Assembly: GCA_009926135.1 (NCBI GenBank)
Contig: RFPL01000009.1
Coordinates: forward strand, 1 to 64,000
DNA: 64,000 nucleotides
Source of the DNA: Sphingomonadaceae bacterium
GTDB taxonomy: Bacteria; Pseudomonadota; Alphaproteobacteria; Sphingomonadales; Sphingomonadaceae
Direction: 5' to 3'
Positions 21,773 through 51,386 of the stretch are shown here, piece after piece. Below the pieces are notes generated by a model. The model saw nothing but the letters and a program-made list of their open reading frames with translations, had not been told where the DNA came from and did no database searches. Positions within the stretch are counted from its first letter, which is position 1. Each line of letters starts with the position of its first letter. The translations under genes were made by a program, and so were the position numbers.

Positions 21773-21803
21773 GATGCTGCCTGAATGACTTGACCTGGGG
21801 TAT

Positions 21804-31697: not shown

Positions 31698-32804
31698 CTA
31701 GAGCAGCACCATGGCGAAGCCGAGCGCCGTCGCGAAGCTGACCAGCGTGGCGGAAATCACCGGGATCGTCGCGCGCCAGCCCATCTCGAGCAGCAGGTCC
31801 ATCCGGCTGCGCATCGCCGTCGCGGTAACCGCCAGCAGCAGCAAGCCCTTGGAGGCAATCAGCGCATAGTGGCTGACCGCCTGCGGCACGGTGATCAGGC
31901 TGTTGACCACGACCGTCGCGAGGAAGGCGGTGATGAACCAGGGCAGGGCCAGGCGCTTCCACACCGGCTGGGCGGCGCCTTCGGCGGTGCCGCCGCCAAG
32001 CATCAGGCTGACCAGCACGACGACCGGGGCAAGCAGGGCGACGCGCGCCAGCTTAACGATGGTGGCATAGCTGCCCGCCGCATCGGAAAAGGCATAACCG
32101 CCGCCGATTGCCTGGGCGACATCATGGATCGAGGCGCCGATCAGGAAGCCGGCCTGCTGGTCGGTCAGGTTGAGTTCCGCGGCAAGCATCGGATAGACCG
32201 ACATGGCAAAGGCGCTGGCCAGGCTGACGCCGACCAGGGTCAAGGCAAACTGCGCCTGGCTGAGCCGTTCCTTGCCGATTACGCCGTATAGCGCCAGCGC
32301 CGCGCTGGCGCCGCAGATCGCGGTCGAACCGCCCGCCAGCATCCCGGCATAGCGCGATTGGGTGGCAAAGCGCGCGCCCACGATCCCCGCGAAGAATGTG
32401 CTGGCCATGACGACCAGCAGCGCCAGGAACGGCGCCGCGCCCAGCGCGGTGATCTGCTCGATCGTCACCTGCAGGCCCAGCACCACGATCCCGGCGCGCA
32501 GGCAGGTGCGCGAGGCGAAGTCCAGCCCGGGGTGCGAGCGCGGCTCGCGCGCGATGAAGTTCAGCGACAGGCCGATCAGCAGGCCCAGCAGGATAATCGG
32601 AAAGCCGTAATGCTCTGACAGCCAGGCTGCAGCGGCCGCCGCTACGCCGCAGATGGCAAGGCCGGGTAGCAGGCTGTCCTTTTGCCGATCGGCCTGGGCA
32701 GTCAGTTCCGCCAGGTGCAGCTCACCATAAAGGTCGCCGCCGTGGGGGAGGGCGTCCCAGTCGATCGCGGGTAGCGTGGCCCGGTTTCTGTCCTGCGGTG
32801 TCAT
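31698..32804 (-). CDS. YeiH-family putative sulfate/sulfite exporter
   Basis: Integral membrane protein of 368 aa from the UPF0324 (YeiH, putative sulfate exporter) family. After a hydrophilic N-terminal extension of about 45 residues there are 9–10 hydrophobic helices. The family segment G-G-S-T-A-I-C-G-A-S-A-A follows, and G-A-S-I-H-D-V-A-Q-A-I-G-G-G-Y is also present. It is divergent from the MFS gene across only 69 bp and lies on the edge of the sulfoquinovose locus, where sulfite must be disposed of. Export of sulfite or sulfate here is inference; the family is poorly characterised. Confidence 0.8.
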   Translation of the reverse strand: MTPQDRNRATLPAIDWDALPHGGDLYGELHLAELTAQADRQKDSLLPGLAICGVAAAAAAWLSEHYGFPIILLGLLIGLSLNFIAREPRSHPGLDFASRTCLRAGIVVLGLQVTIEQITALGAAPFLALLVVMASTFFAGIVGARFATQSRYAGMLAGGSTAICGASAALALYGVIGKERLSQAQFALTLVGVSLASAFAMSVYPMLAAELNLTDQQAGFLIGASIHDVAQAIGGGYAFSDAAGSYATIVKLARVALLAPVVVLVSLMLGGGTAEGAAQPVWKRLALPWFITAFLATVVVNSLITVPQAVSHYALIASKGLLLLAVTATAMRSRMDLLLEMGWRATIPVISATLVSFATALGFAMVLL

Positions 32805-32873
32805 ATTGCCCTTCCCTTATCCCCACGGCACGTTAGTCTGCAAGCAACGAAAAGACAAAATTGGGGAAGAGCC

Positions 32874-34115
32874 ATGGCCACTGGCGGCGCAAACCACACC
32901 GAAGCAAGCCTGATCCGTTCGCGCAACCTGCTGATCGGGCTGCTGTTCTTCGGCACCATCATCAATTACGTCGATCGGCAGGTGCTCTCGTTGCTGAAGC
33001 CCAGCATCGAGGCGGAATATGGCTGGGGTGATGCTGAGTTCGCGCACTTCGCCTCGATGTCGCAGCTCGCTGCCGCCTCGGCGCTGATCTTCGTCGGTTA
33101 CCTGCTCGACCGGTTTGGGGTGCGCCGCGCCTATGGGGCGGCGGTCGGCTTGTGGAGCCTGGCGGGCATCGCCCATGCCTTTGCCGCCACGGTCACCCAG
33201 TTCGTTTCGGCCCGTGTGGCGCTGGTCGCGGCCGAGGCGATCAATACGCCGGCCGCGGTCAAGGCTGCGGCGGTGTTCCTGCCACTCAAGCAGCGCTCGA
33301 TGGCGATGGGGATCGTCAACTCCGCGCCGAACCTGGGCAACATCATCGCCCCGCTGACGGTCATTCCCTTCGCCACCATGTTCGGCTGGCACGCGGCCTT
33401 CATCGTCACCGGGCTGATCGGTTTCATCTGGCTGGCCTTCTGGATCGGCGGCACGCGCCGGTTGCAGCCAGTGGCGGAAACCATCGTCGAAGCGGCCAAG
33501 CCCTCGTTCCGAGAAGCGCTGAAGGACAAAGTGACCTGGGCGATTGCCGGGGCCAAGGCGCTGACCGACATGTTCTGGTGGTTCTTCACCTTCTGGCTGC
33601 CCGACCTGTTCGTGAAGGTCTTTGGCCTGACCCAGAAAGAACTGATCGGCCCGACCGCGCTGGCCTTTACGCTGGCGGCCGTCGGCGCGCTTTCGGCTGG
33701 CGTGGTCTTCCCGCGCCTGCTGGCGCGAGGCCTTAGTGTGAACCGTTCGCGCAAGACCGCGCTGTTCCTGTATGCGCTCATCATCCTGCCGATCCCGCTG
33801 GCGCTGACCGCCGCCAGTCCGTGGACCGCCGCCGCGATCATCGGCATGGCGCTGTTCGCGCACCAGGGCTTCTCCACCAACATCTTCGGCTTTGCAGCCG
33901 ATGCCGTGCCCACCTCGCGCGTCGGGACGGTCATGGCGATCGGCGCGATTGCCGGGAACCTGGCCGGGTTCGGCATCCAGGAGACAACCGGGTGGCTGCT
34001 GACCAACGGCCATGGCTATGCTCCGCTGTTCTACGGCGCGGCGGTATCCTACCTGCTGGCGCTGGGCGTGATCCACTTCCTGGTGCCGCGGATCGTGGCG
34101 CATGATGAGGGGTGA
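32874..34115 (+). CDS. MFS transporter, organic-anion (hexuronate-like) type
   Basis: Inner-membrane carrier of 413 aa with 12 predicted helices. I-I-N-Y-V-D-R-Q-V-L-S in helix 1 and L-D-R-F-G-V-R-R in the loop between helices 2 and 3 match the anion:cation symporter branch (ExuT-like). Members carry acidic sugars, so a sulfonated sugar such as sulfoquinovose or its glyceryl glycoside would fit, given the sulfoquinovosidase nearby. That substrate is inferred. TGA overlaps the GTG of a small ORF as GTGA. It is divergent from the YeiH gene. Confidence 0.85.
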   Translation: MATGGANHTEASLIRSRNLLIGLLFFGTIINYVDRQVLSLLKPSIEAEYGWGDAEFAHFASMSQLAAASALIFVGYLLDRFGVRRAYGAAVGLWSLAGIAHAFAATVTQFVSARVALVAAEAINTPAAVKAAAVFLPLKQRSMAMGIVNSAPNLGNIIAPLTVIPFATMFGWHAAFIVTGLIGFIWLAFWIGGTRRLQPVAETIVEAAKPSFREALKDKVTWAIAGAKALTDMFWWFFTFWLPDLFVKVFGLTQKELIGPTALAFTLAAVGALSAGVVFPRLLARGLSVNRSRKTALFLYALIILPIPLALTAASPWTAAAIIGMALFAHQGFSTNIFGFAADAVPTSRVGTVMAIGAIAGNLAGFGIQETTGWLLTNGHGYAPLFYGAAVSYLLALGVIHFLVPRIVAHDEG

Positions 34116-34291
34116 GGGCGCCTACGACCTCAAAAGCGCTCTTCGCCGTCCTTGTCGGTATGACCATCGGAATAGCCATCGGCTGGTCGGCAAAGGGAGC
34201 CCTCGCGAAGGATGCTTGCCTCCACGCAGGCGGTAAATGGCGAACCATTGACCAGTTCTGCGAAGCGCCAAGGTTTGGCCAGCCGGAATAA
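34112..34291 (+). CDS. Small membrane-anchored protein with two cysteines
   Basis: Unrecognised 59-aa ORF with a GTG start overlapping the MFS stop (GTGA). It has a short positively charged N-terminus, one hydrophobic helix (A-L-F-A-V-L-V-G-M-T-I-G-I-A-I-G-W) and a polar tail with D-A-C-L-H-A-G-G-K-W-R…Q-F-C-E. The C-x-x-A-G-G-x-W…C pattern looks like small exported sphingomonad proteins with one disulfide, but I cannot name a family. Translational coupling to the transporter is possible. An ATG at 34160 would drop half of the helix. Confidence 0.5.
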   Translation: MRAPTTSKALFAVLVGMTIGIAIGWSAKGALAKDACLHAGGKWRTIDQFCEAPRFGQPE

Positions 34292-34335
34292 CCGGCCTGC
34301 ATATAGGCTTAGCAGACTAGCTAAAGGCTAATAGA

Positions 34336-34367
34336 AAAGGCCCCCTGCCGCGAGGCAGGGGGCCTTT
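34336..34367. terminator. Bidirectional rho-independent terminator
   Basis: A perfect 14-bp stem (34336–34349 with 34354–34367) has the loop GCGA. On the minus strand the hairpin is followed by a T-rich stretch (TTTTCTATT), ending the TonB receptor transcript. On the plus strand TTTCTT follows, ending the MFS/small-ORF transcript. Confidence 0.9.
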
Positions 34368-34393
34368 CTTAAAGGCCGTAAGGCTGGGCTGGA

Positions 34394-36781
34394 TCAGAAG
34401 CTGAACCGGCCCGTCACGCCCCAGTAGCGATCCGCATCGCGCGGGATCTGGTAGCGGTAGGAACCGCCGACGCCGCCGTTGACGATCGCTGCGGCATAGC
34501 CCTTGTCGAACAGGTTGCGGACCACGAAGGTCAGCTTCCACTTGTCGTCCGGATCAACCAGGCCGACATTCGCATTGACCAGCGCATAGGCCGGGATGGT
34601 GCCGAGGGCGCGCTGCACCGGATCGGCTGCGAACAGCGAGAGCTGGCTGGACTGGAAGTTCATCGAAGTGCCGAACGCCAGGTTGGCGAAGCTGCCGGTT
34701 TCGATGGTGTGATCCAGTGCGACCGAACCCTTCCAGGTCGGGGCAAAGCCCAGCTTGGTGCCGGCCGCGATCGAGGCCGCACCCAGCGGTGCCTTGAAGT
34801 TGACGACGTGCGCGTCGTTCACCGAAACACCAGCGCTGAGGTTGGTGTTGCGACCGATGCGGTACGCCATGTCAAGCTCGATGCCCTTGGTCGAAACCGT
34901 GCCCGCGTTGGTGAAGCGGGTCACCACCACGCCGGCAACCAGATCCGGGTTGTTGGCCTGGAAGTTCTGGTAACGGGCATAGTAGGCGGCGATGTTGAAG
35001 GTCAGCGCACCGTCCAGCAGCGTGTTCTTCATGCCGATTTCGAACGAGTTCGAGGTTTCCGGCTCGATCACGTTGGTGCCGGTACCGGTCAGGTTGAAGA
35101 AGACGTTGTAGGCCGGACCCTTGTAGCCACGGGCGTAGCTGGCATAGGCCATGGTGTCGTCGTTGAGGTCGAACTGGAAGATCGCCTTGCCCGACAGGTT
35201 GTCGCTGCTGGTTTCGGCAGTCCATGGCACGCCGTTCGACGAAGCCACGGCGCTGGTGGCTGCAGCGGTCGGCGAAGTGCCGAGGCCGACCAGACGGACG
35301 TATTCGTTATAGACGCCCTGGTCGAAGTTCGGCTGAATCCCCGGGCCGGTCAGCGGCGAGCGGCGGCTGTGGAAGACCGACAGCTTGTCATGCGTGTAGC
35401 GCAGACCAGCCACGAAACGGATCGTGTCGGCCAGCTTGTAGGTAGCCTGACCGAAGACCGCGACGTTGTTGAAGGTCGAACCGAACGTGGCCGAGCCCGA
35501 CGGCGTGGTCGAGGGGTTGGCGAAGGTGCTGCCGCACGGCACCAGCGAAGTGGTCGGTGCGCCGGCAGCAGCCGTGCACTGGGTCACATTGCGGGTGAAG
35601 GTCCGCTCTGACTCGGCGCGCGAGTAGAACGCGCCCAGCACGTAGGACAGCGTCTGATCGGCAGGCGAAGTCAGGCGCAGTTCCTGGGTGAAGGTGTTCG
35701 AGGTCTGCGGACCCGAATCGTGCAACTGGGCAAAGCCGACATAGGCGCGGTCAAGCCAATCACCGTCACGGATTTCGGTGTTGTCCCAGCCGCGATAGGC
35801 GGTGATGCTGGTCACGGTGTGATCGCCCAGTGCGAAATCGCCCTGGAACGAGACGCCCCAGCCCTTTTCCTTGGTGGCGGTCACCAGGTTCTGCGCGACA
35901 GTGCGGGTATCGGCACCCAGCGGGGTCGGCAGCGCCAGGAAGCCCAGGCTGGTGCCCGGCAGGCCGGCACCGGTCAGCGGACCGGTGGCGATGATGTCAG
36001 CGCAGCAATCGTCGTCGTTCTTGTAATAGTCGGCGGCGAGGTAGAGGCGCAGATCGTCGCTCGGCTCATACAGGAACTGGCCGCGAACGCCGTAGTGCTT
36101 GTAGCCGTTGACCCACTCGTTGCTGGTGGTGTTGCGGATGTTGCCGTCATACTCACCGTAGAAGCCGGTGACCCGGGCGGCCAGATCCTGGCCAAGCGGC
36201 AGGTTGACCGCGCCCTTGAGGCGGTATTCGCTGCGATCGAAATAGCTGGCTTCGACGCTGCCGCCGAATTCCATCTTCGGCATCTGGGTGGTGATGTTGA
36301 TCACGCCAGCCGAAGCGTTCTTGCCGAACAGGGTGCCCTGCGGGCCGCGCAGCACTTCCATCTGGGCCACGTCGACCATGTCGGAGAAGGCTTCGCCCGA
36401 ACGCGAGTAGACCACGCCGTCAACCACGGTCGAGACCGAAGGCTCACCCGCAATCGAGAAGGTGGCGGTACCGACGCCGCGCAGGAAGATTGTCTGGTTG
36501 AGGGTCGTGCCCGACTTCAGGAAGTTGAGCGACGGCACCATCTGGGCTGCGCTTTCGATCGACGGGCGCGAGGCTTCGGCCAGGCGTTCGCCGCTGAGCA
36601 CCGAAACGGCAACCGGCACGTCCTGGACGTTTTCCGAGCGCTTCTGGGCGGTGACGACGATTTCGCCGGGGGCGCCTTCGTCTTCGTTGGCCGTATCCTG
36701 GGCGTAGGCCGGGGCGGCAAATGCGACCATGGCCAGCGCTGCCAGGGGCAGTGCCGACGATGTGCGAAGCATCGATTTCAT
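34394..36781 (-). CDS. TonB-dependent receptor of the sulfoquinovose locus
   Basis: Outer-membrane transporter of 795 aa. It has a signal peptide (M-K-S-M-L-R…A-Y-A-Q, about 28 aa), a TonB-box segment G-E-I-V-V-T-A-Q-K-R, a plug with R-G-V-G-T and F-G-K-N-A-S-A-G-V-I, then a barrel ending G-R-F-S-F. The frame is open to 36850, but a strong AGGGAGGA site just before 36781 and the signal peptide fix the start. It is divergent from the sulfoquinovosidase gene with a 193-bp shared promoter region. It is the likely route for sulfoquinovosyl glycerol or related glycosides across the outer membrane; the ligand is inferred from context. Confidence 0.88.
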   Translation of the reverse strand: MKSMLRTSSALPLAALAMVAFAAPAYAQDTANEDEGAPGEIVVTAQKRSENVQDVPVAVSVLSGERLAEASRPSIESAAQMVPSLNFLKSGTTLNQTIFLRGVGTATFSIAGEPSVSTVVDGVVYSRSGEAFSDMVDVAQMEVLRGPQGTLFGKNASAGVINITTQMPKMEFGGSVEASYFDRSEYRLKGAVNLPLGQDLAARVTGFYGEYDGNIRNTTSNEWVNGYKHYGVRGQFLYEPSDDLRLYLAADYYKNDDDCCADIIATGPLTGAGLPGTSLGFLALPTPLGADTRTVAQNLVTATKEKGWGVSFQGDFALGDHTVTSITAYRGWDNTEIRDGDWLDRAYVGFAQLHDSGPQTSNTFTQELRLTSPADQTLSYVLGAFYSRAESERTFTRNVTQCTAAAGAPTTSLVPCGSTFANPSTTPSGSATFGSTFNNVAVFGQATYKLADTIRFVAGLRYTHDKLSVFHSRRSPLTGPGIQPNFDQGVYNEYVRLVGLGTSPTAAATSAVASSNGVPWTAETSSDNLSGKAIFQFDLNDDTMAYASYARGYKGPAYNVFFNLTGTGTNVIEPETSNSFEIGMKNTLLDGALTFNIAAYYARYQNFQANNPDLVAGVVVTRFTNAGTVSTKGIELDMAYRIGRNTNLSAGVSVNDAHVVNFKAPLGAASIAAGTKLGFAPTWKGSVALDHTIETGSFANLAFGTSMNFQSSQLSLFAADPVQRALGTIPAYALVNANVGLVDPDDKWKLTFVVRNLFDKGYAAAIVNGGVGGSYRYQIPRDADRYWGVTGRFSF

Positions 36782-36899
36782 GGATGTTCCTCCCTTGCAC
36801 CGGGGGCCTCCTGCCCCGCGGCGTATTCTCCTCTGCCGGACAGGGCGCACCCTTCCGGTTGGTGCTTGAATTGCTGTGAGCCGCTCGATATGTCAAGCG

Positions 36900-36915
36900 G
36901 TGTCATACGGGACAC
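36900..36915. promoter_or_regulatory. Inverted repeat in the divergent TonB/sulfoquinovosidase promoter
   Basis: GTGTC-ATACGG-GACAC: perfect 5-bp arms with a 6-nt spacer, between the receptor (start 36781, −) and the sulfoquinovosidase (start 36975, +). It is a candidate operator for the LacI regulator encoded next door. No second copy was found to support it. Confidence 0.35.
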
Positions 36916-36933
36916 ACGTGGTTCGCGCACTGC

Positions 36934-36950
36934 TTGTGACATTGTCGCAA
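36934..36950. promoter_or_regulatory. Near-perfect palindrome 24 bp before the sulfoquinovosidase start
   Basis: TTGTGACA-T-TGTCGCAA: 8-bp arms with one mismatch around a central T. It has the size and symmetry expected for a LacI-family operator and overlaps where the sulfoquinovosidase transcript should begin. Assignment to the adjacent LacI protein is inferred. Confidence 0.45.
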
Positions 36951-36974
36951 CAGCCGCTTCCGGGAGTTGGGGTA

Positions 36975-38972
36975 ATGGAGTTGGAAGCCGGATTTTCGGC
37001 GGTTGAGGGCGGTTTCGACCTGCACTTCGCAGGCCGCCTGGTGCTGCGCCACCGGGCCGAAACGCCGGTGCTCGACTCAGCCCGTGGCAATCCGACTGTC
37101 ACCATGTATCGCGGCAACTTCAAGATCGAGGATGCGCCGGAAGGGCAGATCACGCCGCTCGATAGTGCGGTGGAGGATGGTTCCGTCACTCTCTCGCACG
37201 AAGGCACTGCCGTCGCCCGGCTGGAACTGTCTGACCATCGCCTGACCATCACCCTGCTGACCCAGGGCCACGACCGCATCCGCCTGCGCTGGCATGGCGA
37301 ACCGGGCGAGGCAGTGTGGGGCGGGGGTGAGCAGATGAGCTACTTCGCGCTCAATGGCCGGACCTTCCCGATGTGGACCAGCGAGCCCGGCGTCGGCCGC
37401 GACAAGACCACCGAGCTGACCCGCCAGATGGACGAGAGCGGGATGGCCGGGGGTGATTACTACCACACCAATTACCCGCAGCCGACGATCCTCACCTCGC
37501 GCTGGCTGGCGATGCATCTCGATGCGGCCTGTTACAGCGTGGTCGATTGCACGGATCCGGCTGCTCATGCCTTCGAGGTATGGAACGGCACGGCAGCGTT
37601 CGAACTCTATGCCGCCGATGGTCCGCTGGACCTTGTCGGCCAGCTCTCTACCCGGTTCGGCCGCCAGCCGCCGCTGCCCGACTGGGTGATCGGCGGGGCG
37701 ATTGTCGGCCTGAAGGACGGCACCCGCAGCTTTGAGCGGCTGGAAGGCTTCATCCAGGCCGGCACCGCCGTCTCGGGCCTGTGGTGCGAGGACTGGGCCG
37801 GGATCCGCGAGACCAGCTTCGGCCGCCGCCTGTTCTGGGACTGGCGCCGCGACAACCAGCGCTATGCCGACCTGCCGCAGCGCATCGCCGCCTTGCAGGA
37901 CCGCGGAATCCGCTACCTGGCCTATGCCAACCCTTACCTGTGCAACGATGGCATCCTCTATGAGGAAGCGCTGGAGGGCGGGCATTTCTGCCTGAAGCCT
38001 GATGCCGACGAGGTCTACCTGGTCGACTTTGGCGAGTTCGACTGCGGCGTGCTGGACTTTACTCGCAAGGAAACCCGCGACTGGTTTGCCGAGAAGGTGC
38101 TGGGCCGCGAGATGCTCGACATCGGCATCTCCGGCTGGATGGCCGACTTCGGCGAATACCTGCCGACCGACGTGCGGCTGGCCGATGGTTCCGACCCGAT
38201 GGAAGCGCACAACCGCTGGCCCGTGCTGTGGGCCGAGGTCAACGCCCAGGCGGTAGAGAGTCGCGGCAAGACTGGCGACGCCGTGTTCTTCATGCGCGCC
38301 GGCTTCTCCGGCGTGCAGGGCTATTGCCCGTTGCTCTGGGCGGGGGACCAGTCGGTCGATTTCACCCGGCATGACGGGATCGGCACGGTGATCACGGCTG
38401 CGCTGTCGGCTGGCCTGGTCGGCAATGCCTACAGCCACTCGGACTGCGGTGGTTACACCTCGCTGCTGGGCAATGTCCGCACGGTCGAGCTGATGGAGCG
38501 GTGGTGCGAGCTGTCCGCTTTCGCCCCGGTCATGCGCAGCCACGAAGGCAACCGGCCCGACGACAACCTGCAATACGACAGCACGCCCGAACTGCTGGCC
38601 TGCTTCGCGCGCTGGAGCCGGGTTCACGCCCACCTGGCGCCTTACGTCCGTCATCTCTGCGACGAGGCGGCCGAGTTCGGCTTGCCGGCGCAGCGCCCGC
38701 TGTTCCTGCACCATGCCGAGGATGAAAGCCTCTACGCAGTGCAGGACCAGTACCTCTACGGCGCGGACCTGGTGGTTGCCCCGGTGATCGAAGACGGCGC
38801 ACGCGAGCGGACTGTGATCCTGCCGGGCGAGGGTGAATGGATCCACGCCTTCACCGGCGAGGCCTATCAATCCGGCACCCACACGATCAGCGCACCGATC
38901 GGCTGCCCGCCAGTTTTCTATTCGGTTCAAAGCACTTATGCGGACCTGTTTGGAGGTCTTCGCAAGTTATGA
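36975..38972 (+). CDS. yihQ: Sulfoquinovosidase (GH31, YihQ/SmoI type)
   Basis: Releases sulfoquinovose from its alpha-glycosides such as sulfoquinovosyl glycerol. The 665-aa protein follows E. coli YihQ along most of its length: G-G-G-E-Q near 117, W-T-S-E-x-G-V-G-R near 134, and nucleophile D391 in G-W-M-A-D-F-G-E-Y. The acid/base is D458 in W-A-G-D-Q. The sulfonate-recognition positions of YihQ (Q262, Q288, R301, W304, Y508) map to K247, E272, R285, W288 and Y494, the K-E-R-W-Y variant I recall from Agrobacterium. The frame is open to 36876; 36975 is preferred for its GGGAG site and family length. No signal peptide, so cytoplasmic. Confidence 0.93.
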   Translation: MELEAGFSAVEGGFDLHFAGRLVLRHRAETPVLDSARGNPTVTMYRGNFKIEDAPEGQITPLDSAVEDGSVTLSHEGTAVARLELSDHRLTITLLTQGHDRIRLRWHGEPGEAVWGGGEQMSYFALNGRTFPMWTSEPGVGRDKTTELTRQMDESGMAGGDYYHTNYPQPTILTSRWLAMHLDAACYSVVDCTDPAAHAFEVWNGTAAFELYAADGPLDLVGQLSTRFGRQPPLPDWVIGGAIVGLKDGTRSFERLEGFIQAGTAVSGLWCEDWAGIRETSFGRRLFWDWRRDNQRYADLPQRIAALQDRGIRYLAYANPYLCNDGILYEEALEGGHFCLKPDADEVYLVDFGEFDCGVLDFTRKETRDWFAEKVLGREMLDIGISGWMADFGEYLPTDVRLADGSDPMEAHNRWPVLWAEVNAQAVESRGKTGDAVFFMRAGFSGVQGYCPLLWAGDQSVDFTRHDGIGTVITAALSAGLVGNAYSHSDCGGYTSLLGNVRTVELMERWCELSAFAPVMRSHEGNRPDDNLQYDSTPELLACFARWSRVHAHLAPYVRHLCDEAAEFGLPAQRPLFLHHAEDESLYAVQDQYLYGADLVVAPVIEDGARERTVILPGEGEWIHAFTGEAYQSGTHTISAPIGCPPVFYSVQSTYADLFGGLRKL

Positions 38973-39982
38973 GCGAAAGGTCCAACATCCGCGACGTCGC
39001 CGCGCGGGCCGGGGTCGCGGTCAAGACTGTCAGCCGGGTGCTGAACGGCCATCCCTATGTCTCGGCCGATACCAAGGCGCGGGTTGAAGAGGCGATGAAG
39101 GCGCTGGAGTTCCGCCCATCGGTTGCCGCGCGGATCTTGTCGGGCGCGAAAAGCAACCAGGTCGCGCTGATCTACGATAATCACAGCCCCTATTACATGT
39201 TCCAGATCCAGACCGGTTGCTGGGACGTCTGCCGCGCCAAGGGCATCCGCCTCTTGGCCCAGCCGGTTGACGTGGCCGATCCCGATGTTGGCGATCAGGT
39301 CCGCGGACTGGTCACCGAGACGCAGGTCGACGGGATCATCCTGTCCTCGCCGGTCACCGATTGCGAACCGGTCCTGCGCGCGCTTGAAGCGCTGGATATC
39401 CCGTTCGTGCGCATCTCGCCCGGCACCAATCATGCCCTGACCAGTTCGGTCTTCATGGACGATGCCCAGGCAGCGGATGACATGACGACCCACCTGATCA
39501 ATGCCGGCCACCGCCGGATCGGTTTCATCAAGGGCCACCCCAATCACAAGGGTTCGGAAGACCGGCTGATCGGCTATCGCCGCGCGCTCGACCGGGCAGG
39601 GATCGCCTTTGACCCGGTGCTGATCTGCGATGGCGAATTCGATTTCGATTCCGGCGTGCGCGGGGCAGGCCGCCTGCTGGACCTGCCGCAGCCGCCGACC
39701 GCGATCTTTGCCTCGAACGATGACATGGCGGCCGGCGTCCTCGCCGTAGCGCACGATCGCAACATGAACCTGCCGGCTGAGCTTTCCGTGGCCGGGTTTG
39801 ACGATACGACCCTGGCCCGCACGGTCTGGCCGCCGCTGACCACTATCCACCAGCCGATGGCCGAACTGGCCCAGACGGCCGCAGAAATCCTGATCGAAGG
39901 GGGCGACATCACCCATCGCCGCCTGCCCCACCAGTTAATCGAGCGCGCTTCCGTCGCGCCGCCACACAGGAAAATGACATGA
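38969..39982 (+). CDS. LacI-family transcriptional regulator
   Basis: Regulator of 337 aa. The N-terminal helix-turn-helix is at residues 5–50: I-R-D-V-A-A-R-A-G-V-A-V-K-T-V-S-R-V-L-N-G, then hinge helix F-R-P-S-V-A-A-R-I-L-S-G. A periplasmic-binding-like sugar domain follows with V-D-G-I-I-L, H-R-R-I-G-F-I-K-G, F-A-S-N-D-D-M-A-A-G and V-A-G-F-D-D-T. Its start overlaps the sulfoquinovosidase stop (ATGA) and its stop overlaps the reductase start (ATGA), so it lies inside the operon it probably controls. Inducer likely sulfoquinovose or a metabolite, by context only. The longer open frame to 38837 is not used. Confidence 0.92.
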   Translation: MSERSNIRDVAARAGVAVKTVSRVLNGHPYVSADTKARVEEAMKALEFRPSVAARILSGAKSNQVALIYDNHSPYYMFQIQTGCWDVCRAKGIRLLAQPVDVADPDVGDQVRGLVTETQVDGIILSSPVTDCEPVLRALEALDIPFVRISPGTNHALTSSVFMDDAQAADDMTTHLINAGHRRIGFIKGHPNHKGSEDRLIGYRRALDRAGIAFDPVLICDGEFDFDSGVRGAGRLLDLPQPPTAIFASNDDMAAGVLAVAHDRNMNLPAELSVAGFDDTTLARTVWPPLTTIHQPMAELAQTAAEILIEGGDITHRRLPHQLIERASVAPPHRKMT

Positions 39983-40893
39983 GCGAACTGCCTCTTGCGC
40001 CCGCCACCCGCCAGCTTGGCACCAGCGGGATCGAAGTTTCCCCGATCGCCTGGGGGATGTGGCGCCTGGCCGAAAATGGCCGCAGCGCGGCTGAGGCGGC
40101 GCGGCTGGTCCACGCCGCGCTCGATGCCGGGATCACCTTCCTCGACACCGCCGACATCTATGGCTTCAACGGCAGCGGCGGGTTCGGCGATGCCGAGGCG
40201 CTGTTGGGCGAGGTGCTGGCCGCCGAGCCGGGCCTGCGCGGCCGGATGGTGCTGGCCACCAAGGGCGGGATCATGCCGCCGCTCCCCTATGACCAGAGCG
40301 CCGCTTACCTGCGCGCCGCCATCGATGCCTCGCTCACCCGCCTCAAGACCGACAGTGTGGAGCTGTGGCAAATCCACCGCCCGGACATCCTGGCCCATCC
40401 GCAGGAAGTCGCGCGCGTGCTGGATGACGCTGTGACGAGCGGCAAGATCCGCACGCTCGGCGTATCCAACTTCACGCAAGGCCAGACCGCCGCGCTCAAT
40501 CACTTCCTGGGCCACAAGCTGGTTTCGACCCAGCCGGAAATCAGCCCGCTGCGGATCGACTGCTTCGAGAACGGCGAACTGGACCAGGCGATGATGCTGG
40601 GCCTGACCCCGCTGGCCTGGTCGCCGCTTGGCGGTGGGCGGCTCGCCAAGCCGGAAAGCGCGCGGGATCATGCAATCTGCGCCGCGCTGGACAAGGTGGC
40701 GGGCGAGGCCGGCGTTTCACGCTCGGTCGCGGCCTATTCGTGGCTGATGGCCCATCCGGCCGGCATCATCCCGATCATCGGCTCGCAGCAGGTGGAACGG
40801 ATTGCCGAAGGCGCCGCCGCGCTGAAGGTGCGCTGGACCCGGACCGACTGGTACGCGGTGCTGGTCGCCGCGCGGGGCGTGCCGCTCCCTTGA
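39979..40893 (+). CDS. smoB: Aldo/keto reductase, candidate 6-oxoglucose reductase (SmoB-like)
   Basis: NAD(P)H-dependent reductase of 304 aa. The tetrad is visible: D and Y in F-L-D-T-A-D-I-Y-G, K in L-A-T-K-G-G, and H in Q-I-H-R-P-D. Cofactor-site segments G-V-S-N-F and I-P-I-I-G-S are also present. In the Agrobacterium sulfo-SMO pathway, an AKR called SmoB reduces 6-oxoglucose to glucose. The position here, between sulfoquinovosidase/LacI and an SsuD-like monooxygenase, matches that role. The family assignment is solid; the substrate is inferred from neighbours. Confidence 0.8.
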   Translation: MSELPLAPATRQLGTSGIEVSPIAWGMWRLAENGRSAAEAARLVHAALDAGITFLDTADIYGFNGSGGFGDAEALLGEVLAAEPGLRGRMVLATKGGIMPPLPYDQSAAYLRAAIDASLTRLKTDSVELWQIHRPDILAHPQEVARVLDDAVTSGKIRTLGVSNFTQGQTAALNHFLGHKLVSTQPEISPLRIDCFENGELDQAMMLGLTPLAWSPLGGGRLAKPESARDHAICAALDKVAGEAGVSRSVAAYSWLMAHPAGIIPIIGSQQVERIAEGAAALKVRWTRTDWYAVLVAARGVPLP

Positions 40894-40965
40894 TACCGAT
40901 CAAGGCGGGCAGGGGCGCATTCGCCCACTAGCCCGCAAGATACCTGACCTGACGGAGAGACTGCC

Positions 40966-42051
40966 ATGACCAACCCGCCCGAAATCGCCTGGTTCTCTGC
41001 CCTCTGCGACGACGATTACGAGTTCCTTGGCGTCCCCGATCCGCAGCTGAAGTCCAGCTGGGAGCATTGCCGCAACATCGTGATGCGCGCCGAAGAAGGC
41101 GGGTTCGACAACATCCTGCTGCCCTCGGGCTATGAGCTGGGGGTCGATACCACCGCCTTCGCCGCCGCCGTCGCTACCCAGGTCAAGCGGATCAAGCTGC
41201 TGTGGGCGACCCGCATGGGCGAGGACTGGCCGCCGCAACTTGCCCGACGCATCGCCACGCTGGACCGGATCCTGGGACCGAACGCGGCTGGCACCGGTGG
41301 CCGCCTCAACGTCAACATCATCTCCTCGCCAATGCCGGGCGAGACGATGGAAAGCGGCCCGCGCTATCGCCGCGGGACCGAGGTGATGAAAATCATCCGC
41401 ACCCTGCTCAATGGTGAGCACCTCGACTTCCAGGGCGAGTTCTACCAGCTCAAGCTCGATCCGGCGCGGATCAGCACGATCTCGGGCAAGTGCCCCAATC
41501 TCTACTTCGGCGGCCTCAGCCACGAAGCGCGCGAGTGCGCTGCCGAAGCAGCCGATGTCTACCTGATGTGGCCGGACAAGATGGAGAATGTCCGCGAGGT
41601 CGTTACCGACATGAAGGCCCGCGCCGCCGCCAAGGGCCGCACCCTCAAGTTCGGCTACCGTGCTCACGTGATCGTGCGCGAAACCGAGGACGAGGCCCGC
41701 GCCTATGCCGACCGGCTGTTGTCCAAGCTGGACGACGAGATGGGCCGTGCGATCCGCGAAAAGAGCCTCGACGCCGCCAACTTTGGCGTCCAGCGCCAGC
41801 AGGAGCTGCGCGGCGCCGCCGATGGCGATGGCTTTGTCGAGGAGAACCTGTGGACCGGCATCGGTCGGGCCCGCTCAGGTTGCGGCGCGGCAATCGTTGG
41901 CAATCCGGACCAGGTGCTGGCCAAACTGCGGGCCTATCAGGACGCGGGGATGGAGGCGTTCATCCTGTCCGGCTATCCTCACATGCAGGAATGCGATATG
42001 TTCGCGCGCTATGTCCTCCCCCACATTCAGCACAGCCCAATCCCCGGGTGA
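40966..42051 (+). CDS. smoC: Flavin-dependent sulfonate monooxygenase, candidate sulfoquinovose monooxygenase (SmoC-like)
   Basis: Luciferase-like TIM-barrel monooxygenase of 361 aa in the SsuD alkanesulfonate group. It would use FMNH2 and O2 to cleave the C–S bond of sulfoquinovose, giving sulfite and 6-oxoglucose. SsuD-like landmarks are L-Y-F-G-G-L-S-H-E-A near 180, A-D-V-Y-L-M-W, the R-x-H pair in G-Y-R-A-H-V-I-V-R near 227, and the Arg-containing loop T-G-I-G-R-A-R-S-G-C-G near 300. A clear ribosome site (ACGGAGAG) precedes 40966. The co-directional cluster supports sulfoquinovose. No flavin reductase partner (SmoA) is in the window. Confidence 0.82.
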   Translation: MTNPPEIAWFSALCDDDYEFLGVPDPQLKSSWEHCRNIVMRAEEGGFDNILLPSGYELGVDTTAFAAAVATQVKRIKLLWATRMGEDWPPQLARRIATLDRILGPNAAGTGGRLNVNIISSPMPGETMESGPRYRRGTEVMKIIRTLLNGEHLDFQGEFYQLKLDPARISTISGKCPNLYFGGLSHEARECAAEAADVYLMWPDKMENVREVVTDMKARAAAKGRTLKFGYRAHVIVRETEDEARAYADRLLSKLDDEMGRAIREKSLDAANFGVQRQQELRGAADGDGFVEENLWTGIGRARSGCGAAIVGNPDQVLAKLRAYQDAGMEAFILSGYPHMQECDMFARYVLPHIQHSPIPG

Positions 42052-43164: not shown

Positions 43165-44568
43165 TCAGCCCTTGATCTGGTACGCAACCTCGAAGTCGCC
43201 CCACCGGCGACCCTGGACAACCACGGGCGAATAGACGTTGCGGACCACGACATAATTGGTGCCGTCACCTTCCTGGCGATAGACCGACATGAAGTAGGGC
43301 GCCTGGCTGGCCTTGGCCGCCTTGTCGATTTCGTCGAGCAGGATGCGGCCGTTGCGGCAGTAGCGGGTGTCGTGGGCCAGCTCGCCGATCGGCTTGCGCG
43401 AGTGTTCGGTCACGTGCGTGGGCAGGAAGCCGTTCATGTCGGCCGCGCTGCACATGATCACGCTGGGATGCGCAATGCGCAGGCGATCGAACAGCGGGCG
43501 CCAGTTGGCATCGGCCCAGTCGCTCAGGCCGGTGCGGTACAGTTCCGGATTGGTGCCGGGGACGAGGCGATAATTGGTGTCGAACAACTGGTCGAGCCGC
43601 AGTTCGCCACAGGCAATGGCGGCTTCGGTAACGGCGACCAGCTGGTCACGGAAGGAGGCGGCGAGTTCGACGATTTCGGTATCGTGCGGCGAAACGCCAG
43701 CGCTGATCACTGCGTTGAACAGCTTGTTGGAGGTGGTTTCCATGGTCAGGACATTGCCGCGAGTGGCATCGAGCAGGACCGAGTTTTCGCGGACTGAGCC
43801 GATCACGGTATCCAGCGCCTCGCGCACCGCGACGCCCTTGGCGTGGACTTCGGCGGAGTGGCGGGCGACGCGCTCGCCGGTTTCGTCAAGCTGGGAGACC
43901 AGCCGCGTGGTTTCCGCCAGAACGTCCGTAACGGTTTCGAGCCGTTCCTCGGCCTGGCTGGATTGATTGACGCCTGACTGGATCTCGGTGACGAGCCCAG
44001 CCGCTTCGCCGACCAGCTTGCCAACTGCCTGGCGGATTTCCTCGGCCGCGGCACTGGTGTTCTGGGCAAGCTTCTTCACTTCGGAGGCGACGACGGCGAA
44101 GGTCTTGCCAGCCTCGCCCGCCCGGGCTGCTTCGATGGTGGCGTTGAGCGCGAGCATGTTGGTGGTGCGGGCGATCGTCTCGATCCCCTTGGAGACGTGC
44201 TGGACCTGTTCCATCACGGTCGCGAAGTTGGTGACGTGGATGCCGAGCCGCGAGATCAGCGTGATGATCGAGCGGAATTCGACCACAGCCGCATTGACCC
44301 GCTCGGTTCCCTTGCCAAGGCGGTCATAGGCCTGGGCCGAGAGCAGCTTCGCCTCGTCGGCGGATTCGGCGATGTGGCGCTGATCGAGTTCAAGCGCGCC
44401 CGCGATCTCGTCAAGTTCAGCGAGGTCCGAAATCTGGCGCTGCATCTGGTCGGTAGCGCGCTCGATCTGGCCGGCGGCCTCGGTGCAGCCCACGGCAAGC
44501 TCGCCGCAGTGAGTGGCTGCGGACTGGTCAAGGATGGGAAGTCCGGCAGGAATCTTCTCGACGTACAT
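43165..44568 (-). CDS. Soluble methyl-accepting chemotaxis protein with C-terminal sensor-like domain
   Basis: Chemoreceptor of 467 aa without transmembrane helices, so cytoplasmic. The coiled-coil signalling domain is in the first part. The hairpin tip, [18 protein letters not shown], lies near residues 135–155 with V-A-S-E-V-K-K-L-A after it. The last ~170 residues form a separate domain (L-F-D-R-L…D-M-N-G-F-L-P-T-H and [10 protein letters not shown] at the end) that I take as the sensor. Signal unknown. It is divergent from the cheA operon and probably feeds it. Confidence 0.82.
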
Positions 44569-44719
44569 GCAAGTGCCCCGGCTGTGTTGCGCTGCCGGAC
44601 TAGCGTGGAATGGTTAACACGAGGTCAAGTGGCCTCACCCAGGCTGGCCGCATGTGGGTACCGGGATAACCCGCAATTAACTATCTCGGTCCATAGCCCG
44701 GGGCGGAGAAACGCCGCCG

Positions 44720-46972
44720 ATGGACGATCTGATCACCGAATTCATCGCCGAAACGCGCGAGATGCTGCAGGCACTCGAACGCGGGCTGGTGGCGTGGGAA
44801 CGCGATCCGGGGGAGCGAGAGCGGCTCGCCGACATCTTCCGATTCGTCCACACTGTTAAGGGAAACTGCGGATTCTTCGACCTGCCGCGGCTCGAAGCGC
44901 TGGCCCACGCGGCAGAAGATGCGCTGGGCGATGTTCGCGCGGGCAAGCGATCCATCGACCGGGCGCTGGTCGATGCGGTGCTCGCCGTGATCGACCGGAT
45001 CGGCGAGATGATTGAAGCGATTGCCGCGGGCGAAGACGTTTCCGGCGGCAATGATGCAGAACTGATCGCCCGTTTCACGGTGACTGACCCACAGCCGGTA
45101 ATTGCCGCACCCGTCGGACCGGCCGCCAAGCCGGCGCCAGCGCGCGAACCGTTCCGCTCGGTCCGCTTGCCGACCAACCTGGTCGACCGAGTGATGAGCG
45201 GCGTGTCGGACATGATCCTGGTTCGCAACGAGCTCGAACGGCAGTTGCGCCATAGCGACGGCGATCCGGCGTTGCTGGCCAACTTCGGGCGGCTATCCTC
45301 ACTGCTTTCCGAGATGCAGGCAGCGATGGCGCGGGTGCGGATGCAGCCGATCGGCACGCTGCTTGACAGCTACCAGCGGATGGTCCGCGATCTGGCTGCT
45401 GAACTGGGCAAGCAGGTCGAGGTCGAAATCGAGAGCGGCCAGGTCGAACTCGACCGCGAGATGATCGAACTGCTGCGCGACCCGCTGCTGCACGTGATCC
45501 GCAACGCGATCGACCATGGCATCGAGACCCCGGCAGAGCGCCTGGCGGCCGGCAAGCCCGCCGAAGGACGACTGATGCTGTCGGCCCGGCAGACTGGCAA
45601 CGAGATCCGCATCGCCATCCTCGATGACGGTCGCGGGATCGATGCCGAAAAGGTTGTCGCAAGGGCGTTCGAACGCGGACTTGTCACGGCCGAGCAGGCC
45701 GCTCGCATGGATGTCAGCGAGAAGCTGATGCTGGTCTGCGAGCCGGGCCTTTCCACCGCACAGGCTGTTACGGCGATCTCTGGCCGCGGGGTCGGGATGG
45801 ACGTGGTCCGTGCCAGCATCGAGCGAACCGGGGGCAAGCTGCGGATCGCTAGCGCACCGGGCGAGGGCACGCGGTTCCTGCTTGATGTACCCCTGACGCT
45901 AAGCATCGTCCCCTCGATCACGGTCGAGGTTGGCGCGCAGGTCTTTGCAGTCCCGCGCTCCTACGTGCGCGAGATTGTCCGCAACGGGCACGATGTCGAA
46001 GTGGAGCGGATCGGCGGCATGCGCCACGTCCGCGTGCGCGGCGAGCTTTATCCCTGCCTGGGCCTGGGCGCGCTGTTCGGAATTGACTGCGAGCAGGATC
46101 CTGAACGGCAGGTGCTGGTGATGGTGACGATGATCGACGGATCGGTCTTCGCGCTTTGCGCCGATGACATTGCCGATCATTGCGAACTGGTGATCCGCCC
46201 GGTCGCGCCGCAAGTGATTGCGACGGGTCTCTATGTCGGGGTTGCCCAGCTCAACGATGGCAAGCCGGCACTGATGCTGGATCTGGTCGGCATCGCGCAG
46301 CTCGGCGGGATCAGCAGTGACAAGCAGGCGCGGATTGCAGCACCCGCTGCAGCCGAAGCCGACGTTCGCGAGCTGGCAGCTGTAATCGTCTTTGCCGGAC
46401 GCGATGGCATCCGGCGCGCGGTTCCGCTCGAGAAGGTCGAGCGATTGATCGAAGTGACGGAGCCCGAGATCGGCCGGGGCAGCGGCCTGCCGCATATCGT
46501 CTTTGCCGAAGCCATCGTGCCATTGCACGGCGTGTCCACGGAACGAAGGGATGAGCCGATTGATGTGCTTGTCCTGTCCGAAGGGGGCCGCAGGCTGGCC
46601 TTTGCCAGTGCCGGGGCGGTCGACACAGCTGAAATCGATCTGGCGACGGTCACGGACGAAACGGGCCGCAGGATGGCCTTGCTAGACGGACAACCGGTCG
46701 AACTGCTCGATCTGGCCAGACTGAGCGGCCTCCTGCCGACCTGCCGCCTGCCGAATGATGACGCCTGGGCGCGCACCTTCCTGCGCCCGCTGGTCGAAAG
46801 CGCCGGCTATCAGGTGGTCGACGGGCAGGGGCCTGCCGATCTTGAAATCATGCTGGAAGCTGACGGCGGGGAGCGACTGTTGATCGGCAATGGCGGCCTG
46901 GCCGTCGCCAAGGACGATGCGGCGGCCCTGCAGGCGGCGCTGCGTGCCATCGGCGGGCGGAGGGCATCATGA
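44720..46972 (+). CDS. cheA: Chemotaxis histidine kinase CheA, P2-less with degenerate C-terminal domain
   Basis: Kinase of 750 aa. P1 (Hpt) domain residues 1–105 with phospho-acceptor H44 in F-V-H-T-V-K-G-N. Only about 30 residues separate P1 from the P3 dimerisation helices (about 145–225), so P2 is missing. The P4 ATPase has N-box H-V-I-R-N-A-I-D-H-G, G1 D-D-G-R-G-I-D and G2 G-R-G-V-G-M-D-V-V. A CheW-like P5 (about 395–530) follows. The last ~200 residues resemble another CheW-like region and a receiver-like fold without an evident phospho-acceptor Asp. The stop overlaps cheW (ATGA). Confidence 0.92.
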   Translation: MDDLITEFIAETREMLQALERGLVAWERDPGERERLADIFRFVHTVKGNCGFFDLPRLEALAHAAEDALGDVRAGKRSIDRALVDAVLAVIDRIGEMIEAIAAGEDVSGGNDAELIARFTVTDPQPVIAAPVGPAAKPAPAREPFRSVRLPTNLVDRVMSGVSDMILVRNELERQLRHSDGDPALLANFGRLSSLLSEMQAAMARVRMQPIGTLLDSYQRMVRDLAAELGKQVEVEIESGQVELDREMIELLRDPLLHVIRNAIDHGIETPAERLAAGKPAEGRLMLSARQTGNEIRIAILDDGRGIDAEKVVARAFERGLVTAEQAARMDVSEKLMLVCEPGLSTAQAVTAISGRGVGMDVVRASIERTGGKLRIASAPGEGTRFLLDVPLTLSIVPSITVEVGAQVFAVPRSYVREIVRNGHDVEVERIGGMRHVRVRGELYPCLGLGALFGIDCEQDPERQVLVMVTMIDGSVFALCADDIADHCELVIRPVAPQVIATGLYVGVAQLNDGKPALMLDLVGIAQLGGISSDKQARIAAPAAAEADVRELAAVIVFAGRDGIRRAVPLEKVERLIEVTEPEIGRGSGLPHIVFAEAIVPLHGVSTERRDEPIDVLVLSEGGRRLAFASAGAVDTAEIDLATVTDETGRRMALLDGQPVELLDLARLSGLLPTCRLPNDDAWARTFLRPLVESAGYQVVDGQGPADLEIMLEADGGERLLIGNGGLAVAKDDAAALQAALRAIGGRRAS

Positions 46973-47400
46973 CGAACGACCTCTTGATCGCCCGCGTGGC
47001 CGGAGAGCGGATCGCCTTGGCGGCGATCGAAGTCCAATCCGTAATCGAACTGGGCGAAATCGTGCCGGTGCCGCTTGCACCCCGCCTCGTCGCCGGTCTT
47101 GCCACGCAGCGCAGCCGCACGTTGACCGTGATCGATGTTGCGCTGGCACTCGATCTCGCGCCAACCATCGGCGGTGCCCGCTTTGCCGTGGTCGTTGAAA
47201 TCGAGGGCGTTGGCTATGCCCTGGCGGTCGATGCGGTTGAACACGTCATTCCCGCGCTGAGCCCGGTTCAGCCAGCCAAGATCAAGCTTTCTCCCGGCTG
47301 GCTGCATTGCGCGGCCGGGATGGTCGATACCTCCGTCGGCACGGTCCTCAAGGTCGATCTGACCCGACTGGTCGCTGGTCCAGAGCAAAAGGCAGCCTGA
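46969..47400 (+). CDS. cheW: Chemotaxis adaptor CheW
   Basis: Coupling protein of 143 aa joining receptors to CheA. It shows the two beta-barrel CheW fold: I-A-R-V-A-G-E-R-I-A-L at the start, V-I-E-L-G-E-I-V-P-V-P, L-T-V-I-D-V-A-L-A-L and the second barrel V-V-V-E-I-E-G-V-G-Y-A-L-A-V-D-A-V-E-H-V. Sequence is divergent from E. coli CheW. It is translationally coupled to cheA by a 4-nt overlap and followed by cheY after 1 nt. Confidence 0.85.
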   Translation: MTNDLLIARVAGERIALAAIEVQSVIELGEIVPVPLAPRLVAGLATQRSRTLTVIDVALALDLAPTIGGARFAVVVEIEGVGYALAVDAVEHVIPALSPVQPAKIKLSPGWLHCAAGMVDTSVGTVLKVDLTRLVAGPEQKAA

Positions 47401-47401
47401 G

Positions 47402-47824
47402 ATGAATGCAGCATTCCGGCCTCTTGCGGGCGAACCATTGGAGAGTGGCGTGACTGGTCTCACTTGCCTGATCGTCGAGGATTCACGCGTGATCCGCCGC
47501 GTTTCACGGCACATCGTCGAGAACCTTGGCATGACCGCGCTGGAAGCCGAGGACGGGGCTCAGGCGCTCGACGCCTGCAACGTCGCCATGCCCGACCTCA
47601 TTCTCCTTGATTGGAACATGCCGGTCATGGACGGGCTGGAGTTTCTGCGCGCGCTGAGAGCCAGGCCTGATGGTGCCAGCCCGAAAGTGGTGTTCTGCAC
47701 CACGGAGTATGAAGCCGGGCATATCCGTGAGGCTATTGCCGCGGGGGCCGACGAATACGTGATGAAGCCGTTCGATCACGAAACCCTGCTGCTCAAGCTG
47801 CAACTGATCGGGATCCTGCCGTGA
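47402..47824 (+). CDS. cheY: Chemotaxis response regulator CheY
   Basis: Single receiver domain. From 47402 it is 140 aa. An in-frame GTG at 47450 preceded by GGAGAG would give 124 aa, the usual CheY size, and start just before C-L-I-V-E-D-S-R-V-I-R. The phospho-acceptor Asp is in L-I-L-L-D-W-N-M-P-V-M-D-G, with the Thr switch in F-C-T-T-E and Lys in V-M-K-P-F-D. Either start is possible. It overlaps the GTG start of cheB by 4 nt. Confidence 0.9.
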   Translation: MNAAFRPLAGEPLESGVTGLTCLIVEDSRVIRRVSRHIVENLGMTALEAEDGAQALDACNVAMPDLILLDWNMPVMDGLEFLRALRARPDGASPKVVFCTTEYEAGHIREAIAAGADEYVMKPFDHETLLLKLQLIGILP

Positions 47825-48921
47825 ACATGTTTGCCCCGCGGCAAGACCCCGGCGGCAGGACGCAGACAGGATTCACCTCCCGCACAATCCGGGTCTTCAT
47901 TATCGATGATTCCAGCGTGGTCCGCGCGATCTTCTCGCGGCTGGTGGAGAGCGAGCCGGGGCTGGAACTGGCGGGTACCGCCGGTTCAGCGGAAGAGGCG
48001 CTGCGCCAGTTCGGAACGCAGCCGGTCGATGTCGTATTGCTCGACCTTGAAATGCCGGGAATGGGCGGAATGCGGGCTTTGCCCGAGATCATCCGCCAGT
48101 CCGGCCGGGCGCGAGTGATGGTCGTCTCCAGCCTGACGGCCGAGGGCGCGGAGCACACGGTTCAGGCGCTTGGACTGGGAGCCGCCGATGCGCTGCTCAA
48201 GCCCGGTGCCGGCGGCTTCGACCGGGCCTACCGCGACCGTCTGGTTGAACGCATCCACAGCCTTGGCGGTCGCCCGCTGCAGCCTAGCCAGCAAGGCGGA
48301 GCGCGCAGCCAGCCGCTCCTTGTCGGCCCTACGCAATCTGCGATCCGGCCCGAAGTCCTTGCGATCGGGGCATCGACCGGCGGGATCCACGCGACTGGCC
48401 AGTTGCTGCGGGGCTTGCCCGCGCGGATTGGCATCCCGGTCATCATCACGCAGCACTTGCCCGTGGAGTTCAGTGAACCTTACGCCAAGCAATTGCGCGA
48501 ACTTTCAGGCCGTGAGGTCTTACTGGCTGCCGATGGGCAGTCCCTGCAGCCCGATTGCATCCATCTCGCACCTGGCGACGGGCATCTCACCGTCGTGCGG
48601 CGCGGCGACCGCGCGGTGATCCGGCTGGATCGCAACGCGGCGTCAACTGGCTGCATGCCGTCGGTCGATCCGATGTTCGCTTCGTTGGCCGCTGTCTTCG
48701 GGGCCAATGTGCTCGGCGTCGTCCTGACCGGAATGGGACGCGACGGCACCGAGGGCGCACACGCATTGGTCGAGGCAGGCGGAAACGTACTGGTACAAGA
48801 CGAGGCCAGTTCGGCCGTATGGGGCATGCCCGGATCGATCGCCCGGGCCGGTCTAGCCGCCGCAGCCCTGCCGCCTTGCGAGCTTGCCCTGCGCATCGCT
48901 GCGGCGCTCGGGCGGGCCTGA
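47821..48921 (+). CDS. cheB: Chemotaxis protein-glutamate methylesterase CheB
   Basis: Receptor demethylase and deamidase of 366 aa with GTG start. The N-terminal receiver (about 22–140) has D-D-S in F-I-I-D-D-S and phospho-Asp in V-L-L-D-L-E-M-P-G-M-G-G. The linker spans about 140–175. The C-terminal esterase has nucleophile Ser in G-A-S-T-G-G, His in I-T-Q-H-L-P-V-E-F and Asp in T-G-M-G-R-D-G. CheR follows after 5 nt. Confidence 0.95.
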   Translation: MNMFAPRQDPGGRTQTGFTSRTIRVFIIDDSSVVRAIFSRLVESEPGLELAGTAGSAEEALRQFGTQPVDVVLLDLEMPGMGGMRALPEIIRQSGRARVMVVSSLTAEGAEHTVQALGLGAADALLKPGAGGFDRAYRDRLVERIHSLGGRPLQPSQQGGARSQPLLVGPTQSAIRPEVLAIGASTGGIHATGQLLRGLPARIGIPVIITQHLPVEFSEPYAKQLRELSGREVLLAADGQSLQPDCIHLAPGDGHLTVVRRGDRAVIRLDRNAASTGCMPSVDPMFASLAAVFGANVLGVVLTGMGRDGTEGAHALVEAGGNVLVQDEASSAVWGMPGSIARAGLAAAALPPCELALRIAAALGRA

Positions 48922-48926
48922 GCGCG

Positions 48927-49769: not shown

Positions 49770-49818
49770 TGCCGGCGCGGGTTAGCACCATTTTAACGGT
49801 ACTTGGCCTAGTCAGTCC

Positions 49819-51375: not shown

Positions 51376-51386
51376 GGACTAGCACC

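Follow-up and report, generated by a model that had tools for sequence, protein, structure and literature searches.

A sphingomonad locus predicted to join TonB- and MFS-dependent uptake to oxidative degradation of sulfoquinovose

Sulfoquinovose (SQ) is the sulfur sugar of plant membranes. One review counts it among the most abundant organosulfur compounds (PMC12890257), and two reviews (PMC9594981, PMC12890257) describe work on its oxidative breakdown by Liu et al. (2021) in Novosphingobium aromaticivorans and by Sharma et al. (2022) in Agrobacterium, the N. aromaticivorans cluster being without SsuE (PMC9594981). PMC13372026 places Novosphingobium among the assimilators of 13C-SQ and as the dominant one in a mangrove incubation, predicts the sulfo-SMO pathway for close relatives, and takes SmoB plus SmoC as the mark of that pathway. 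Genes for both are found in the locus described here, which lies in the first 64,000 nucleotides (the window) of contig RFPL01000009.1 of a Sphingomonadaceae bacterium (assembly GCA_009926135.1; 3.41 Mb in 93 contigs), the closest named relatives of which by the monooxygenase, among the matches listed, include two Novosphingobium metagenome-assembled genomes (95 and 93% identity), which suggests a Novosphingobium-like host. The locus is proposed to be a LacI-controlled regulon that imports SQ or its glycerides and desulfonates them oxidatively, a reading to which we assign a probability of about 0.8. It draws on the observed gene content, homology, residues, co-occurrence, and sites, from which the transport, regulatory, and catalytic steps are predicted.

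The three enzymes of the locus have Agrobacterium-type enzymes as their closest relatives of solved structure, and the residues that were checked are retained in the alignments. The GH31 protein scores 821 bits against 5ohy and 615.7 bits against 5aed, both named YihQ, which we take to come from Agrobacterium and Escherichia coli, respectively, and 862 bits against NF007746, above the cut-off of 553. At the positions of 5ohy K245, E270, R283, W286, and Y491, presumably the sulfonate-binding set, and of D388 and D455, presumably the catalytic pair, the window protein has the same residues, as do 89 of 89 sulfoquinovosidases (SQases) of the loci compared; a query of the literature with the motif name KERWY listed no related papers. 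The monooxygenase scores 366 and 363 bits against 7oh2 and 7olf versus 201 against 7jv3 and 185 against the SsuD structure 1m41. The PDB titles of 7oh2 and 7olf are alkanesulfonate monooxygenase and methanesulfonate sulfonatase; we take these entries to be SmoC structures, and 7bbz and 7bby to be SmoB, and assign them to the Agrobacterium Smo enzymes. Equivalents of SsuD R226, H228, R297, and Y331 are present in all 146 locus monooxygenases and that of H333 in 144. In a 93-row tree, 91 SmoC-like rows, including both solved ones, split from SsuD/MsuD at 100/100, so that the window enzyme groups with SmoC rather than away from it; the tree is midpoint-rooted, with long branches and an outgroup of two sequences, and it therefore shows a split, not proof of specificity. 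The best solved relative of the reductase is 7bbz (189 bits; 40% identity over 286 columns), and the catalytic tetrad is present, Y, K, and H being kept in all 130 rows and D in all but one. The assignment of sulfo-SMO chemistry to YihQ-, SmoC-, and SmoB-type enzymes in the initial annotation is thus supported by sequence comparison. No signal peptide is evident, as judged by eye without a predictor, in the SQase, reductase, or monooxygenase; hydrolysis can therefore be placed in the cytoplasm.

Gene models and domain searches confirm the seven genes named in the initial annotation (Table 1), and also the arrangement that it described. The GH31 frame is open from 36876, with homology beginning near the ATG at 36975. 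The GH31, LacI, and aldo/keto reductase (AKR) genes are joined by two genuine ATGA overlaps, the LacI ATG (38969) with the GH31 stop and the AKR ATG (39979) with the LacI stop, and the monooxygenase follows in the same run after a gap of 72 bases. The TonB receptor gene is divergent from this run, the MFS and YeiH-family genes diverge from one another alongside it, and the MFS gene converges on that of the receptor.

Table 1. Features of the locus, in coordinates of the window
Feature	Position	Strand	Evidence or remark
PF03601 (YeiH-family) membrane protein, candidate sulfite exporter	31698-32804	-	PF03601 170.9 bits
Second operator-like site TGTCCTGCGGTGTCA	32789-32803	+	70-85 bases 5' of MFS start; overlaps first codons of YeiH-family open reading frame
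MFS carrier, DgoT-like	32874-34115	+	PF07690 147.7 bits; proposed to import SQ or SQ glycerides across the inner membrane
TonB-dependent receptor	34394-36781	-	PF00593, PF07715; proposed outer-membrane SQ/SQ-glyceride receptor
Operator-like site TGTCAAGCGGTGTCA	36891-36905	+	Inside the TonB-SQase divergent gap
GH31 sulfoquinovosidase, YihQ/SmoI type	36975-38972	+	Matches to 5ohy, 5aed, NF007746
LacI-family regulator	38969-39982	+	PF00356 and PF13377
Aldo/keto reductase, SmoB/SquF type	39979-40893	+	Match to 7bbz; catalytic tetrad
FMNH2-dependent SQ monooxygenase, SmoC/SquD type	40966-42051	+	Scores to 7oh2/7olf; tree; residues

The receptor has a plug domain (PF07715, 57.3 bits) and a β-barrel (PF00593, 146.1 bits), and a signal-peptide-like stretch can be read by eye in the open reading frame that starts at 36781. 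Its distribution was followed in order-wide searches of 396 genomes each, which had matching handles and were treated as one set, with thresholds of E 1e-100 or better for SmoC and 1e-110 or better for the receptor. SmoC was found in 88 genomes and a receptor relative in 93; both occur in 85, SmoC alone in 3, the receptor alone in 8, and neither in 300, so that a receptor relative is present in 85 of 88 genomes with SmoC versus 8 of 308 without it (Fisher p 8e-73, in a test that ignores relatedness). A genome with a 102-residue SmoC fragment and no listed receptor (G291) was left out of the 88; with it, the ratio is 85 of 89. Receptor and SmoC lie within 8 kb of each other in 81 of the 85 genomes, 54 kb apart in one (G233), and on different contigs in another (G121). 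In a tree of 78 rows, the window receptor and 48 receptors linked to SmoC loci, which were found through likeness to the window receptor or a Sphingobium one, so that unrelated receptors at such loci would escape, form one branch (SH-aLRT 100, no bootstrap) that excludes 29 other host receptors; one linked row (L079) and two host rows (L192 and L216) were set aside for length, and a weak PF00593 match (C24) was left out. SQ or an SQ glyceride is proposed as the substrate of the receptor on the basis of this co-occurrence. A chance placement of the receptor gene was also considered and was rejected on the genome profile and the operator-like sites described below.

The comparison of gene neighborhoods across the Sphingomonadales that the initial annotation had called for shows that the gene set does co-occur. 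The 80 named loci are the best 80 by similarity of at least 575 confirmed candidates and therefore lean toward close relatives; counts use those with enough upstream DNA or flank. An AKR gene is beside SmoC in 74 of 74, a LacI gene is present in 72 of 74, a TonB receptor gene on the minus strand in 66 of 66, a GH31 SQase gene on the plus strand in 63 of 66, and an MFS gene in 60 of 62. The YeiH-family gene, in 50 of 62, is frequent rather than constant. An arrangement of this regularity is far beyond chance, and the association of TonB and MFS genes with SQ genes, with an operator-like motif in common, is conserved in the order. Among 40 further regions fetched from the 88 genomes with SmoC, 38 (L122-L159) have a SmoC of 64-77% identity, and a reading of their neighborhoods finds a TonB relative in 35 (the exceptions being L133, L151, and L154); 19 encode a GH31 SQase and 18 a Gfo/Idh protein, and the receptor therefore goes with either partner. 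PMC10755693 lists a Sphingomonas protein among the GH188 sulfoquinovosidases, and we infer that the Gfo/Idh proteins of SmoC loci belong to GH188. The other two regions (L160 and L161; SmoC 49%) resemble the roseobacter type. Twenty alphaproteobacterial loci from other orders, some of them short, were screened for transporters with a single ABC set and a single TRAP set; a TonB receptor is found in 1 (L171) and SmoC-linked TRAP genes in 6.

Rearranged and plasmid-borne versions were also seen. SmoC and AKR genes accompany TonB and GH31 genes on the minus strand in L112 (a Novosphingobium sp. EMRT-2 plasmid), L085, and L089, and the annotated plasmid of L112 also carries PhyH dioxygenase, LysR, and acyl-CoA ligase genes. 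On the Sphingobium yanoikuyae plasmid pKN1 (L113), AKR and SmoC genes lie downstream of a Gfo/Idh gene and are followed by genes for a PhyH dioxygenase, an MFS protein, a sulfatase, and a TonB receptor. SmoC-like proteins (45%) are encoded in Bacteroidota, on Emticicia and Spirosoma plasmids (L115 and L116); close to the Spirosoma gene is a SusC/SusD pair accompanied by sigma and FecR genes.

The transcription units of the locus appear to be connected by a short operator-like site. The sequence TGTCAAGCGGTGTCA is found exactly in 62 of 66 TonB-SQase gaps of the named loci and with one mismatch in the other four, versus 0 of 13200 shuffled gaps within one mismatch, the shuffles preserving base composition only; all 8-mers common to more than half of 67 gaps derive from this element and its immediate flank. 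Exact TGTCNNNCGGTGTCA occurs twice in the host genome, both times at the locus (32789 and 36891), and the reversed control occurs 0 times; with up to 3 mismatches, a 19-base form likewise finds only these two sites in the window and none in 100 shuffles. Where the LacI protein is at least 70% identical to that of the window (83 loci), there is a site within one mismatch in 80 and two or more in 64, and the remaining three (L052, L064, and L109) end before the gap. We infer from this distribution that the site belongs to the LacI protein.

The carrier gene shares this element in a manner that depends on its type. The description of the carrier as an organic-anion MFS protein holds insofar as it is an MFS member of DgoT-like character, its best solved relative being the D-galactonate transporter 6e9n (94 bits), but its score against TIGR00893, 141.4 bits, is well short of the 395-bit cut-off for that family. 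When window-type carriers are defined by 50% identity or more to the window MFS, 31 named loci have this type, and all 31 have exact TGTCNNNCGGTGTCA within 300 bases upstream of the MFS gene. In another 31 named loci, an MFS gene of another type sits behind the TonB gene on the same strand; none has a second operator copy, the best match there having 3 to 5 mismatches, and in this arrangement a single site could suffice for TonB, MFS, and YeiH. In two of the closest relatives (L033 and L034), the YeiH, TonB, and SQase proteins are 83-88% identical to those of the window, but the MFS differs (41%) and its gene has the opposite orientation, and the carrier has therefore been exchanged in place. 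It is on balance probable that the Sphingomonadales use a dedicated family of TonB receptors for SQ or SQ glycerides, with one LacI operator linking two exchangeable types of MFS carrier, one with its own operator facing YeiH and the other behind the receptor gene.

Several observations weigh against the assignment of the whole locus to an SQ regulon. Domain searches find no flavin reductase among its genes, a point that the initial annotation did not raise, and the only PF01613 domain of the host is fused to an α/β hydrolase on another contig (C90); the PF03358 matches (contigs C13 and C3) are WrbA and a weak one. The operator-like site loses distinctness when the match is relaxed: at a tolerance of 2 mismatches to TGTCAAGCGGTGTCA, 4 sites turn up in the host versus 3 for the reversed control, and at 3 mismatches, 11 of 100 shuffles reach the window's count of 4. 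Among the 52 loci whose LacI is more distant or missing, 11 have a single site within one mismatch, and none has two. Receptor relatives of 38-42% identity occur in eight genomes without SmoC, with TRAP genes beside the receptor in 5 of 6 such loci read, and the receptor family is therefore wider than SQ. The YeiH-family gene is absent from 12 of the 62 named loci. It can be asked whether the receptor and the MFS carrier act on a different anionic sugar or sugar acid and are mere neighbors of the SQ operon. The D-galactonate transporter as nearest solved relative of the carrier and the receptor relatives beside TRAP genes would fit this, and the host has 34 PF00593 matches, so that chance neighbors are possible; however, the receptor follows SmoC through the genomes, even where the two are 54 kb apart, occurs with either type of SQase and in rearranged gene orders, and shares its operator-like site with the MFS and SQase units, which makes such a bystander role improbable.

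A greater likelihood, although still well short of even, attaches to the view that the PF03601 protein exports something else, such as sulfate, or has no part in the pathway, sulfite being oxidized or assimilated. Besides the incomplete conservation of its gene, the YeiH label stands at the level of the Pfam family (170.9 bits) but not at that of the subfamily, the score against TIGR00698 being 106 bits and the cut-off 232.6. On the other side, the single Oxidored_molyb match of the host scores best against MsrP (82.6 bits, below the cut-off of 207) and is far below the SorA and SoxC cut-offs, in Ruegeria TM1040 a PF03601 gene and SmoC are separated by about 7 kb, and a copy of the operator-like site overlaps the start of the gene here, which is also the only PF03601 match of the host genome. 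According to PMC12880088, a Salmonella yeiH mutant is sulfite-sensitive and YeiH confers sulfite resistance. Sulfite export by the YeiH-family protein is accordingly plausible from homology and context. The possibility that a different exporter systematically takes the place of YeiH was considered and rejected, no common gene being found beside MFS in nine YeiH-less loci, where the adjacent open reading frames were identified from the letters without a domain search. Far less credible is the suggestion that the SsuD-like enzyme scavenges sulfur as a general alkanesulfonate monooxygenase. It is in the SsuD superfamily, but its 244.6 bits against the SsuD equivalog TIGR03565 are below the cut-off of 518.2, its score to the SmoC-type structures is twice that to SsuD, the position of SsuD Cys54 is Leu in the window (Leu in 133 and Val in 13 of the 146 locus enzymes), and its gene stands with those of an SQase and a SmoB-like reductase; scavenging was rejected on the scores, the tree, and the operon setting.

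In the favored reading, that of an SQ regulon, the dedicated TonB receptor would carry SQ or its glycerides across the outer membrane and the MFS carrier would take them across the inner membrane, after which the SQase would free SQ in the cytoplasm. The SmoC-type monooxygenase would then cut the C-S bond with FMNH2, presumably supplied by an unlinked reductase, and O2 to give sulfite and 6-dehydroglucose, which the SmoB-type reductase would convert to glucose, and sulfite would probably leave through the PF03601 protein. LacI would probably repress the transcription units through the two TGTCNNNCGGTGTCA copies until an SQ-derived ligand appears. If this is correct, there is an active outer-membrane route for a sulfosugar, a topic that is not addressed in the literature consulted, and the receptor, the carrier, and the short operator-like site are testable and usable genomic markers of SQ use in sphingomonads.

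Other gene groups were noted in passing. In five loci without SmoC (L217, L218, L219, L221, and L224), a receptor relative of 38-42% identity adjoins TRAP transporter genes, and four of these loci also encode, nearby, a Gfo/Idh protein with about 34% likeness to GH188; they may represent a sister module that takes up a different anionic substrate. Directly after the locus, 43165-52655 of the window holds chemotaxis and signaling genes, identified by Pfam as MCP, CheR, EAL/GGDEF, and MCP, with CheA, CheY, and CheB judged by eye; an MCP gene also adjoins SmoC in L032-L034. On the minus strand at 14946-24416, CoA-transferase III, hydantoinase A and B, and HMGL-like genes are found beside another TonB receptor gene.

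The initial annotation regarded this layout, which it judged suited to sphingomonads, as not described in detail, a view that must be narrowed: PMC9594981 and PMC12890257 show the core pathway to be in print for N. aromaticivorans, and the chemical half is therefore not new. The newer part is TonB/MFS uptake and its control. The word TonB is absent from the main text of PMC13372026, PMC9594981, PMC12890257, and PMC10755693, and literature searches on sulfoquinovose with TonB found, as judged from the records listed, no work on SQ uptake; one on sulfoquinovosidase and outer-membrane transport gave no papers. Among the systems compared, Ruegeria sp. TM1040 (L117, roseobacter type) shares a SmoC (51%), an AKR, and a PF03601 gene with the present locus but has a TRAP transporter, a linked flavin reductase, a GntR regulator, and a Gfo/Idh protein that replaces the GH31 SQase. 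The Rhizobium sp. WSM4643 plasmid (L114) is nearer in its SmoC (67%), GH31 relative (55%), and LacI-family gene but has an ABC transporter, and no TonB turned up within the 25 kb that were read. The Agrobacterium sulfo-SMO system (SmoI, SmoB, SmoC, SmoA, and an ABC importer) provides the best solved relatives of the three enzymes. It includes an ABC importer (PMC9594981) and the flavin reductase SmoA (PMC13372026), whereas the present locus has TonB and MFS proteins and no linked flavin reductase; an ABC importer is not required for sulfo-SMO, and a SmoA or SsuE gene in the cluster is common but not universal. The transporters and regulator of the N. aromaticivorans sulfo-ASMO system (SquD and SquF), which was compared through reviews, are not described in PMC9594981 and PMC12890257; like the present locus, that system has no linked SsuE, belongs to the same order, and combines an SQ monooxygenase with a reductase.

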